Shown piece by piece: positions 53,527-57,933 of a stretch of DNA of 64,000 nt. The stretch is from Rhodohalobacter sp. 614A. Its GTDB lineage: Bacteria; Bacteroidota; Rhodothermia; Balneolales; Balneolaceae. Location: assembly GCF_021462415.1 (NCBI RefSeq), contig NZ_JAKEDS010000002.1, positions 1,116,001 to 1,180,000 on the forward strand. Direction: 5' to 3'. The position numbers and the translations under genes are program-made. Under the pieces are notes generated by a model. It ran no database searches. It saw nothing but the letters and a program-made list of their open reading frames with translations, and was not told where the DNA came from. Every line of letters starts with the position of its first letter. Position 1 is the first letter of the stretch.

Positions 53527-56500
53527 TCATCCCACACTTCCCTCCACGATTTCAATCTCCTCCTCACTCAATCCATACAACTCATACACCAGCCGGTCTA
53601 TTTCCGCTTCCAGTTTGCCGGTGTCGGCTTCGGGGTTTTGTTTTTTGGTGATGAGGATTTCGTCCACGAGTGTGGTAAGTTTTTCTGATTTTTTTGGAAC
53701 TGGAAAATCTTTTAAAAACACATAACTGGGCTCATAATAATCCCCTCTTAGTTTGGGGAGAATTAAGTCGTACAAAAAATAAACAAGAGTACTGTTCATG
53801 TAACCCAAAAGAAATTTATCATCTAAACTGATGATAAAGCACTTTTGGTTTGTATACTTGTTTTCATCGTCATAGGTATATTCTGGCTGCTTACATATAT
53901 TTGGATAAATAATCTTTGGCTTCTCAAACTCTTCATAATAATCGACTGCATCCTGAATTTCATACCATTTATAACTTCCCGGTTTTCTTCCTGGCCATTC
54001 GCTGCCTGGAATATCCTTGGGGCGGGGTTTCAGCTGTTCTTTAAATCCTTCTAAATATTTTTTAACGGCCGGGTACTTATCAATTTCAATTCCTCGTCTT
54101 GTAAAAATCAGATAGTTTTCGGGCTCGGGGACCTGATATCGTTTAATATCCCGCCCTGCCAAAAAGGGTTTTATCAATTCCGCACTGGATGCATCTTCAG
54201 CGATCAACCGGTCTTTCGTTTCCTCGTCAATCACAAAAGCTTTATTCAATCCGGTTTTAATGCCATAAAATATTTTCCCTTCTACATATTCACCCAATGG
54301 AGTTCCTGCCTCTTTGAGTTTTTCAAGCAATCGTTGAGTTTCTATCGGCACCAACGACCAGCCTTCTTCACTCAATTTGGTTGCATCTACTTCAAAGCCA
54401 TTTTCCTCTTCCAGAACCTCAAAATTTTCTACAGGCAAACTTTCCACTTCAAATGCTTTGAACACCGTTGGATGGTCGGTTTTCCTGATTTCCAGCAAAC
54501 AGGGATAGGTTGTGGCTTCTTCAAAAACGGGCAGGTCTCCAAAATCGGTGATGGCCGTAATTTGTCTTTGCTGCATCCACGTTCTCAACGGTTTGCCGTA
54601 ATTCGCCCGCATCCATTTATTCGCCACGATATAATGGAAGTAGCCGTTTTCCCGAAGTAATTTCACGCCCTGTTCTATGAAATAAGCATACAAATCCGCA
54701 GTTCCGGCATATACATCAAAATGGGTTTTTAAAAAGGGTTTTAAATCGCCCAACGCTTCCTGCCGCACATACGGCGGATTCCCAATCACCACATCAAACC
54801 CAACAAATGTACCGTCTTTATCCAGCACTTCCGGGAATTCGAAACGCCATTCAAAGGCTTCGCGGTAAAAAGCCCCGGCTTCTTCCCCGGCTTTTTCTTC
54901 TTCCAGTCTGGCTACTTTTTTCTGCTGTTTTTTGAGTTCTTTTTTGGTGGCTTTTCCTTCTCCGAACAGGTCTTCGTTCTGCATCAACTCCAGCTTTCCG
55001 CGGGCGTTACTCAGCTTTTTGTTGATGGGTTTATTGTTGAGCAGGCTTTCGCTGTATTCGGCTTTAATGTCGTCAATGAGTTTTTCCAGGCGCTGTTTCT
55101 CATTGCGGACACGCGTTTCGCGGTAGCTGCGCACAGCCTGTTTGTAATCTTCCAGCGAGTGCTCGCTTTTCTTGAAGATGGAACTGAGATCTTCATCCAG
55201 CCCAAACCGGCTCACCAGCGAATTCCCCGGTTTTATGTTGATATCAATATTGGGAAGGACTTCCAGTTCGGAGTATTCACCCTCACCCAGTCCACCCTCT
55301 CTCCCGCCAGCGGGCGAGGGGAGATCTTTTTCATTCGTTTTTGAATGTGTATTAATCTCTTTACCCGTTCTTTCTCCCTGAGGGTGAGGGTCAAAATGAG
55401 GGCCCGGGCGATAATACGCATGTTTCAGCAGTTCAATCCACAACCGCAGCCGGCAGATTTTCACTGAATTGGGATTGATATCCACCCCAAACAAACAGTT
55501 TTCGATCAGGAATTTCTTTTCGTGGAAGAGCGCCATTTGTACACGCTGGCGGTCACTTCCCGCCGGTTTACGGGTTACCTTCCCGTCTTTCCATTCGTGC
55601 TTCAGCTTGTACTCAAACAGTTCACCTTCGTGCTCAATAGCCAGTTCATCGTTTTCCACCTCAATATCCAGGTATGGAATGCGCTTGCCTTCCGGGTCGC
55701 ACAAAATCTTCAACTCCGACTTGATCGCAATCAGCTCATTCAGGCAGGAAACCAGAAAATGTCCCGATCCCACGGCCGGGTCACAAATGGTGATGGAATT
55801 AATGATGTCATTGGCTTGCCGGATGGAAATGTCTCGTCCGATGCGGTTGGAGATGTCGGTGAGGGTGAGTTTGTCGCCCTCACCCAATTCACCCTCTCCC
55901 CGCCCTTCGGGCACCCCGCTCCCACTGGGAGAGGGAAGTTTTTGAGAATGTGTTTTATCAGAAACATATGACTGAATCGTTTCCAGAACGTTTACAGTAT
56001 TATTTTGAACCTCCTCATTTTTAAATCTTACGATTTGAAGGTTCATTTCCTTTAAAATTTTCTCCCGCTCCTGATCGGATATCTGCTGTTTTTCTTCATT
56101 ATGATATCTGCCATCCAGTTCTATGGCAAGTTTTGCCTCATGGCAATAAAAATCGATAACAAAACCCTCTTTGATCGGATGCTGCCGTCTGAATTTTAGC
56201 CCCATCTGTTTATTCCGCAACAATTGCCAAAGCATCTCCTCAGCCGGCGTCTGGTTTTTGCGAAGGTATCTCGCATTTTCCAGCAGCGACTCAGGAAGCT
56301 TTGCTCTCGGCGTTTCAGAAGACATCCCGCGCTCGAAATCACTCCCTTTTCCCTCGGGGAGAGGGGTTGGGGAGAGGGCCTCTGCAAACTTATCAATCAC
56401 CGCTTTCCGCAAGGTTTCCCGCGCCATATACTCGGTGATAAACCCGGGTGTAAAAAACGAACCGTCTTTGTAACCGTTGATCTTCTCAAAAATAAGTCCA

Positions 56501-57933
56501 AGCACCGAAGCGTTGATCAGCGTTTTGTCTTCAGTTTGAATGCCGCCCGAACTTTCCGCGCTGAAATTATAGGCATCGAGAAACCGAAGGAGATAATCGA
56601 GGGTATTTAATGGGCCTTCGGGAGGGCGGGTTGCCTTCTTCAATATACTTTGAGAATAAAGCCCGAGAGACGCTTTGTCATTCAGCCCGGAAATCTGGAT
56701 AGTGGTTTTTTCGAGTTTTGTGGAATCAAACAGCGAGGAATTCAAATATGGAATATGCCCAAACTGTTCTTGCACAGATCGCGGCCTTTCCTCATTACGA
56801 AGAGCAAGAACCCTGAAGAAAAGTTTATTTAGCTCATCATACTCATCAATGGTATTAAAACTGAGAAACTTAAATTTGTCATCATCATTATGGTAGGAAA
56901 GCAGCTGGGCTTCCATAAGTTTTAAAAAGAGAATACGGTTCATCCATGTAATCACCAGCTCAAGCGCCACACCAAAAAGCTGATCATTTTCATCTCCGCC
57001 ATACTGAGTCCGGGCATCCCGAACCTCATTCATGTGCTGGTCATACCGTAAAATTTCGATAGTATTTTCTATCAGCGACCCGCTTTCTCTTTCATTTTCC
57101 GGCAGTCTTTGAATGAGCCGGCTCCCCTTCTCTTTTACTTCCTGCAGGCCAAGGATATGCAGAAATTCATTATAAAATCGTTTATCGAGCGAGTTGCTGT
57201 CATTGGCAAACGGTTTCTTCACCAAATGCTCCGGAGAAAAAAGCTTGTAGAGCGGAATCAGTTTTTTATCATCATCTTCCGAGGCCGGAGCTGCCAGTTT
57301 TGCTTTGTAATCCTTCAGGTTCAGATAAATTCCATTCAGGTTGGCATCAGAAGCCGCAATAAATTCCCTGAATTTGCCGTACAAAAAATCGGTATTGGAA
57401 GAGACTTTCTGGTCATTTTTCCAGTTTCGAAAGGTTTTAATCAGTGACTTTTTGGAGTAAAAATTCCGTTCGATCTCCTGGGCATCAAAGAAAAAGAACT
57501 CCGTATAATTGGTGATGACAACTTGTTTGATGTCTTCATTGCCACCCTCCCGTTCCTCAAAATAATAGAGAAGTGCTTCGTGAAGAGCTTTGGCGTTGCC
57601 ATTCTCTTGGGTGATCATCTCACGGGTATTTCCCGGTTTTTTCGCTTCAATGAGCACTTCCAGGATAGAGGATTTTGTTTTCCCGGAATAAATCCCCAGA
57701 TCCACCCGATTGCTGGTGTTTACCAACCGTTCTTCTTTATTGTAAAAACTGTTTTGCAGAAAATCCCGGAGGTACCCTTTCAGGTGTTCTTCGCTCTCTC
57801 CTTCGGCATGACTCAAACTTTTTAGGTACGCGGTCGCCTCTTCTTTAAAATGATCCAGGTCTGCCCGTTTAATAGTGACCTTTAAATATGCCTTATTGAT
57901 CCCCTGCCGAACAGTTGTTGTATGTAGATTCAT
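53527..57933 (-). CDS. Type IIG-like restriction-modification protein (Eco57I-type methylase) with two in-frame insertions
   Basis: 1468 residues, larger than usual for the family. N-terminal PD-(D/E)xK nuclease signature: VDLGIYSG (Asp78) and LIEAKK (Glu96, Lys98). Methylase motif I is CDPAVGSGHFLVS (about 718-730); catalytic motif IV is NPPY (about 1050), typical of N6-adenine methyltransferases. A coiled-coil-like stretch lies near 930-1010 and a TaqI-type target-recognition region follows to the end. Two segments do not belong to the family: residues about 519-686 (a DUF559 nuclease between palindromic ends) and about 848-884 (a short palindromic element). The frame stays open through both. 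No partner restriction or specificity genes are adjacent, so it is a single-protein defence system. Confidence 0.88.
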   Translation of the reverse strand: MNLHTTTVRQGINKAYLKVTIKRADLDHFKEEATAYLKSLSHAEGESEEHLKGYLRDFLQNSFYNKEERLVNTSNRVDLGIYSGKTKSSILEVLIEAKKPGNTREMITQENGNAKALHEALLYYFEEREGGNEDIKQVVITNYTEFFFFDAQEIERNFYSKKSLIKTFRNWKNDQKVSSNTDFLYGKFREFIAASDANLNGIYLNLKDYKAKLAAPASEDDDKKLIPLYKLFSPEHLVKKPFANDSNSLDKRFYNEFLHILGLQEVKEKGSRLIQRLPENERESGSLIENTIEILRYDQHMNEVRDARTQYGGDENDQLFGVALELVITWMNRILFLKLMEAQLLSYHNDDDKFKFLSFNTIDEYDELNKLFFRVLALRNEERPRSVQEQFGHIPYLNSSLFDSTKLEKTTIQISGLNDKASLGLYSQSILKKATRPPEGPLNTLDYLLRFLDAYNFSAESSGGIQTEDKTLINASVLGLIFEKINGYKDGSFFTPGFITEYMARETLRKAVIDKFAEALSPTPLPEGKGSDFERGMSSETPRAKLPESLLENARYLRKNQTPAEEMLWQLLRNKQMGLKFRRQHPIKEGFVIDFYCHEAKLAIELDGRYHNEEKQQISDQEREKILKEMNLQIVRFKNEEVQNNTVNVLETIQSYVSDKTHSQKLPSPSGSGVPEGRGEGELGEGDKLTLTDISNRIGRDISIRQANDIINSITICDPAVGSGHFLVSCLNELIAIKSELKILCDPEGKRIPYLDIEVENDELAIEHEGELFEYKLKHEWKDGKVTRKPAGSDRQRVQMALFHEKKFLIENCLFGVDINPNSVKICRLRLWIELLKHAYYRPGPHFDPHPQGERTGKEINTHSKTNEKDLPSPAGGREGGLGEGEYSELEVLPNIDINIKPGNSLVSRFGLDEDLSSIFKKSEHSLEDYKQAVRSYRETRVRNEKQRLEKLIDDIKAEYSESLLNNKPINKKLSNARGKLELMQNEDLFGEGKATKKELKKQQKKVARLEEEKAGEEAGAFYREAFEWRFEFPEVLDKDGTFVGFDVVIGNPPYVRQEALGDLKPFLKTHFDVYAGTADLYAYFIEQGVKLLRENGYFHYIVANKWMRANYGKPLRTWMQQRQITAITDFGDLPVFEEATTYPCLLEIRKTDHPTVFKAFEVESLPVENFEVLEEENGFEVDATKLSEEGWSLVPIETQRLLEKLKEAGTPLGEYVEGKIFYGIKTGLNKAFVIDEETKDRLIAEDASSAELIKPFLAGRDIKRYQVPEPENYLIFTRRGIEIDKYPAVKKYLEGFKEQLKPRPKDIPGSEWPGRKPGSYKWYEIQDAVDYYEEFEKPKIIYPNICKQPEYTYDDENKYTNQKCFIISLDDKFLLGYMNSTLVYFLYDLILPKLRGDYYEPSYVFLKDFPVPKKSEKLTTLVDEILITKKQNPEADTGKLEAEIDRLVYELYGLSEEEIEIVEGSVG
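55280..55390. mobile_element. Small palindrome-ended element inserted in frame in the RM gene
   Basis: 111 bases between CCCTCACCC (55280-55288) and its exact inverted copy GGGTGAGGG (55382-55390), with TCA directly repeated on both sides. It adds 37 codons (in frame) between the HAYYRPG and YSELEVLPNIDIN stretches. Its left end (CCCTCACCCAGTCCACCCTC) matches that of the DUF559 element in the same gene. It translates to a Gly/Glu/Pro-rich linker. Confidence 0.7.
55877..56378 (-). mobile_element. DUF559-nuclease element inserted in frame in the RM gene
   Basis: About 502-504 bases bounded by imperfect inverted repeats: CCCTCACCCAATTCACCCTC at 55877 and, read inward on the minus strand from 56378, CCCTCTCCCCAACCCCTCTC. 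Inside, on the same strand and frame as the host gene, is a DUF559/Vsr-like PD-(D/E)xK endonuclease domain of about 115 residues: NARYLRKNQTPAEEMLWQLL, LKFRRQHPI, FVIDFYC, LAIELDGRYH. The ends are translated as low-complexity linkers (LSPTPLPEGKGS and GELGEGD). The host frame continues on both sides. Confidence 0.75.

Follow-up and report, generated by a model that had tools for sequence, protein, structure and literature searches.

Inteins and mobile introns are thought to require splicing for the invasion of conserved genes, and I-Bth0305I is the homing endonuclease of a mobile phage intron. The EDxHD family of homing endonucleases, in which I-Bth0305I is included, has been described (PMC3943268). 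Rickettsia palindromic elements (RPE) are insertions of another kind, palindromes of ~100-150 bp that are found in frame in unrelated metabolic genes and are tolerated there (PMC10969869). A DUF559 protein of Caulobacter acts as a Vsr-like enzyme (PMC12907096). The window, by which is meant the whole 64-kb stretch of DNA analyzed here, holds an Eco57I-type restriction-modification (RM) gene with two in-frame inserts, of which one, element A, encodes a DUF559 nuclease and the other, element B, does not. We consider element A, with a probability of about 0.6, to be a copy of a mobile, selfish, non-splicing, homing-like element that lives as a tethered domain of its host protein. The features on which the argument turns are these:

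53527..57933, minus strand: host gene, encoding an Eco57I-type RM protein of 1468 aa, inserts included (open frame and Pfam; Pfam domains DUF7149, DUF7814, Eco57I and TaqI_C)
55876..56379, minus strand: element A, an in-frame insert of 504 bp (168 codons) with inverted GC-rich ends and a DUF559 nuclease (segment missing from homologues)
56355..56379, minus strand: left (upstream) terminal inverted repeat of element A, translated ALSPTPLPEG
55966..56283, minus strand: DUF559 (Vsr-like PD-(D/E)XK) nuclease domain of element A, aa 551-656 (Pfam and Foldseek)
55876..55902, minus strand: right (downstream) terminal inverted repeat of element A, translated GEGELGEG
55280..55390, minus strand: element B, a nuclease-less palindromic insert of 37 codons in the same host gene

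Anatomy of the host gene and its two inserts

The host frame is open across all 1468 aa, element A included, and the length of element A is divisible by three. Pfam places DUF559 (PF04480; 103.6 bits against a curated cut-off of 20.6, E 6.8e-30) between DUF7149/DUF7814 and Eco57I. In other Bacteroidota, genes homologous to the host gene align with it over residues 1-519, 700-847 and 886-1468, that is, minus the element A segment, which is missing from the aligned host relatives except L086 and L089; in G092, the closest host relative over the element A region (82% identical), the site is empty. The open frame, the Pfam match and the homologues without the segment together bear out the preliminary description of a DUF559 element in frame within an RM gene. 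That the segment might be a regular domain, the outcome which that description held up against itself, is contradicted by most RM relatives, the closest among them.

Element A starts with GCCCTCTCCCCAACCCCTCTCCCCG and ends with an imperfect inverse of GCCCTCTCCCCAACCCCTCTCCCCG, both ends being GC-rich and ~25 bp long. The ends pair as GCCCTCTCCCCA-AC-CCCTCTCCCCG against GCCCTCACCCAATTCACCCTCTCCCCG (local score 15), a pairing that was matched by one of 3000 random pairs drawn from the window; GGGAGAGGG occurs at four sites in the 64 kb, against 0.27 expected, and all four lie inside element A. These repeat ends are present where the preliminary description had quoted them and are translated, as it said, into Pro/Gly/Glu linkers. 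The AlphaFold2 model (mean pLDDT 58, a low overall confidence) gives 70-84 for the DUF559 part and 23-48 for both linkers; element A would then be a nuclease domain with a flexible tether at either end.

Element B had been overlooked. Its right end aligns with the right end of element A over 37 columns (score 23), and its loop holds other small proline-rich inserts in G167, G065 and G070, the first of which is from the same genus as the window genome (Balneolaceae). Elements A and B fit the Rickettsia palindromic element type: they are palindromic, they lie in frame and they keep the host open.

In the window's own genome DUF559 matches number only three and palindromes are few, which precludes any copy-number argument there. 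That genome has one further DUF559 gene, which is unflanked, and a search of it for the exact hairpin pattern gave no match, the repeats being degenerate. A decayed DUF559 fragment of 41 aa (L003:1501-1775; own genome C1, ~411610-411890) adjoins an intact CCCTCACCCCACCCCCTCTCCC palindrome, and is a dying copy.

Spread among hosts and tolerance by host proteins

The survey covered 394 Bacteroidota genomes, many of them MAGs, and 80 named loci; named isolates are among the hosts, such as Cyclobacterium plantarum GBPx2 (RM gene) and Stagnimonas aquatica THS-13 (MetH). DUF559 matches at E<=1e-15 were found in 161 of the 394 genomes; of the ~160 best matches that were listed, about 50 fall in frames of 290-1484 aa. 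One build recurs, in which DUF559 has a translated palindrome on either side and the whole is embedded in host sequence. Hosts confirmed by Pfam in the Bacteroidota survey are MetH, LeuRS (two sites), HsdR, HemF, RecG, UvrD-like helicases, IcmF, an M23 peptidase, HsdM, a type ISP enzyme, an N4/N6 methylase, HisF and HemD. A scan of named genomes, with hosts again identified by Pfam, added HrpA (Sideroxydans), MnmE (Runella zeae DSM 19591), MetRS, ValRS, chorismate synthase (AroC), an Lhr-like helicase, S-adenosylhomocysteinase (SAHH) and two additional MetH sites. In-frame DUF559 elements occur in at least five phyla (Bacteroidota, Balneolota, Chloroflexota, Pseudomonadota and Spirochaetota). 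What the preliminary description called an intein-free way to live inside a gene recurs in about 20 unrelated host proteins. In HemF, HisF, HemD and ArgB the domain lies at one end of the protein, and mere read-through could have produced these fusions.

Words of the palindrome, picked for counting after some loci had been seen, reach ~12 per kb up to 150 bp from in-frame DUF559 domains, against 0.1-0.3 per kb at a distance of 1-1.5 kb. They are also concentrated, less strongly, beside stand-alone DUF559 genes. Other DUF559 genes very often bear these flanks, the constant lack of which the preliminary description would have read as a sign that repeats and nuclease are unrelated. The plasmid search returned stand-alone DUF559 genes only. 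Viral contigs yielded three distant relatives only, which gives no support to phages as carriers. Among open-access papers, to which the literature search extended, none on DUF559 as an in-frame element was found.

Several further loci deserve a place here. In several Balneolaceae HemF has DUF559 fused in frame at its N-terminus, and an ArgB-like protein of Chitinophagaceae has the same arrangement (L104, L107, L110, L113 and L225, L233, L265); read-through at the start codon may have given rise to these joins. A DNA methylase gene (L040:1082-4450, in G106) carries a DUF559 element and about four small translated palindromes in one frame, and an HsdS-like gene adjoining an occupied HsdR (L041:5802-7061, in G132) has the short palindrome-like peptide RPQPSHNPSQREGN in frame. 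Dispersed MITE-like palindromes of ~140 bp, mostly intergenic and of the CCTCACCCCAACCCCTCTCC family, occur in G275 (L186-L193) and in G022 and G104 (L194-L200).

Hosts tolerate the insert. LeuRS gave one match per genome (in two pieces where interrupted) in 148 of 148 genomes, and in G029, G053 and G103 the sole LeuRS copy found is the interrupted one. At the same loop, nuclease-less L-R elements are present in G099 and G363 and the same-genus G214, G261 and G379 are empty. In L154, L177 and L179 the loop is occupied by another translated repeat, SKVESQKSKVES, whose DNA is of the GTCGAAAGTCAAAA type; the LeuRS loop is a general hot spot for coding repeats. In the MetH model, once the insert is skipped, both halves of the host fit onto E. 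coli MetH (Z 19.4, 223 residues, rmsd 4.5), and the insert itself matches 3hrl (Z 13.5). A tolerant loop and flexible linkers would thus allow even essential single-copy enzymes to carry the element.

Selection on the element and its descent

Among 17 MetH inserts from Flavobacteriaceae-type genomes, identity at fourfold sites is 0.90 in the terminal repeats, far above the 0.35 of the DUF559 part and the 0.34 of the host (permutation p<=5e-5), so that the ends, translated though they are, are preserved at the DNA level or restored there time and again. With the repeats included, the MetH inserts have a median pS of 0.61 and a median pN of 0.23, the changes in the nuclease being mostly silent. 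The core residues E22, D51, E62, D64, H68 and D77 are invariant in 15 inserts, and may include counterparts of the E-D-x-H-D active-site set of the EDxHD homing endonucleases. Such constraint at the level of both DNA and protein, over saturated distances, most simply points to a mobile element.

The nuclease matches I-Bth0305I (3r3p) in a profile comparison (E 2.3e-6), and Foldseek aligns it with the catalytic domain of that enzyme (probability 1.00, TM 0.76) and also with 3hrl. Against a homing-like reading, the nuclease is only ~110 aa long, with no added DNA-binding part.

The DUF559 tree contains a 24-row clade (100/96) that consists of in-frame inserts only, with no stand-alone members. 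Inserts cluster by host site (25 label changes, where the minimum is 21 and shuffled labels give 44.6), with some host switches; for example, an M23 peptidase copy lies within the MetH group and a UvrD copy within the LeuRS group. A 131-row DUF559 tree agrees (44 label changes against 77 when shuffled) and suggests separate invasions of RM site A in Balneolaceae and in Cyclobacteriaceae. Vertical descent followed by loss could account for part of the same-site clustering. The insert is present in about 18 of the 148 MetH genes of genus g32; on the host tree its presence and absence amount to 10 changes, nine of them forced by well-supported branches. Host and insert trees conflict for L322 (AU p 0.016 and 0.00035, for a grouping chosen after the trees had been seen), but, against a homing-like reading, no co-conversion gradient was seen beside that discordant MetH insert. 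That the nuclease drives spread like a homing enzyme, as the preliminary description surmised, we still infer, now with the support of same-site clustering, of presence and absence within a genus and of the likeness of the nuclease to the catalytic domain of a homing endonuclease.

In the DUF559 tree no genome has near-identical copies at two of its sites, hence no recent burst, a further point against the homing-like reading. At the MetH, IcmF and LeuRS junctions no target-site duplication was recognized, the empty relatives being not close enough; junctions differ by a few codons and several host codons are missing, which again counts against homing-like insertion. An ATAGAA repeat beside the G099 LeuRS element was considered as a target-site duplication and dropped, since it is natural in that loop.

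Mechanism, rivals and relation to known systems

We infer cleavage, its target, copying by repair and the lack of splicing, which would go together as follows. The element consists of a stop-free frame, encoding a DUF559 nuclease of the Vsr/EDxHD kind, between GC-rich terminal inverted repeats of ~25 bp that can each fold into a hairpin as well. The whole would be translated with its host and not spliced, its Pro/Gly/Glu linkers projecting from a tolerant loop. The nuclease would make or provoke a break at the element-free allele, or at palindromic ends, and repair would copy the element in, usually at the corresponding loop of a homologue and occasionally in a new gene. Loss of the nuclease would leave short palindromic inserts such as element B.

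The main rival, which we regard as unlikely, gives the nuclease a transposon-like role on the repeat ends: in a cut-and-paste or copy-and-paste transposon DUF559 would act on the terminal repeats as a transposase does, inserts of the element B type would be MITEs and recurrence in the same loop would reflect tolerance only. Terminal inverted repeats conserved as DNA speak for such a transposon, as do element B and the nuclease-less L-R elements of the LeuRS loop in two genomes, with three species of the genus empty. But the nucleases cluster by host site and not at random, no target-site duplication has been seen, and we know of no PD-(D/E)XK enzyme that transposes such an element alone. Moreover, G022 has 23 palindromes of this kind and no DUF559 match at E<=1e-15; being abundant there, they can persist, and perhaps move, without DUF559, and something else may move them. 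The palindrome count per genome does not track the presence of DUF559, which argues against DUF559 as the sole mover of palindromes.

It is improbable that the association is one of passive hitch-hiking, in which a Vsr-like repair gene came to lie between dispersed palindromes, was moved by ordinary recombination and was kept where harmless. Palindromes do occur without DUF559, and in some genomes mostly between genes, and the Vsr-like activity of the Caulobacter protein (PMC12907096) would suit a repair gene. Yet a pure clade of in-frame inserts, together with constraint on the ends as DNA and on the nuclease as protein over saturated divergence, argues that the element is selected as a unit. 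That the DUF559 segment is a useful nuclease module of an RM defense enzyme has very little probability: hosts in the RM-type clade are often restriction-modification genes, but most RM relatives do without the segment, its presence is patchy within one genus, and the same element is found in MetH, tRNA synthetases and chorismate synthase, enzymes to which a nuclease is of no obvious use. An intein or intron, excised before the host protein works, is scarcely credible although the hosts (conserved enzymes, helicases, synthetases) are of the types that inteins favor, for Pfam results on the window's host protein and the surveyed hosts include no Hint or intein domain, Rfam gave no credible match and no intron family for the window insert, the 17 MetH inserts share no conserved junction nucleophile and the frame is always open.

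The favored reading is the homing-like element tolerated as a tethered domain. Whether it is a mobile-element class of its own, with a homing-type nuclease and inverted ends conserved as DNA, always translated in essential proteins, non-splicing, spread over several phyla, yielding nuclease-less in-frame palindromes and reshaping loops, is a tentative proposal to which we would give slightly less than an even chance. It is apparently a little-noticed selfish kind that survives without being cut out, and that appears to invade conserved genes (sole LeuRS copies, MetH, RecG and other core enzymes) by tolerance. Three matters become testable: the spread of a homing enzyme without splicing, how bacterial proteins came by their palindromic peptide insertions, and whether many of the enzymes that databases list as 'DUF559-containing' are merely parasite-occupied. 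The elements also supply natural domain-insertion sites that leave essential enzymes functional.

With the EDxHD homing endonucleases such as I-Bth0305I, inteins and mobile introns, the element shares a related nuclease core, insertion in conserved genes, recurrence at the same site, patchy distribution and purifying selection on the nuclease. It differs from them in having no intron or intein to hide it, in a nuclease that stays in the host protein and in ends that are inverted repeats. REP elements with their RAYT genes, and bacterial MITEs, likewise tie GC-rich hairpin repeats to the gene for a DNA-cutting enzyme and have nuclease-less copies, but the copies described here lie in frame within coding sequence, and DUF559 we take to be a PD-(D/E)XK-type nuclease, not an HUH tyrosine transposase as for RAYT. 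The stand-alone DUF559/Vsr-like proteins (3hrl; Caulobacter VsrA) belong to the same domain family, whereas the in-frame forms are lineages of their own in the 131-row tree. With Rickettsia palindromic elements, finally, the likeness is that of in-frame palindromic inserts, and element B and the L-R inserts of LeuRS are of this type; compared by description, the two differ in that PMC10969869 does not mention a nuclease and that the elements found here extend over five phyla.
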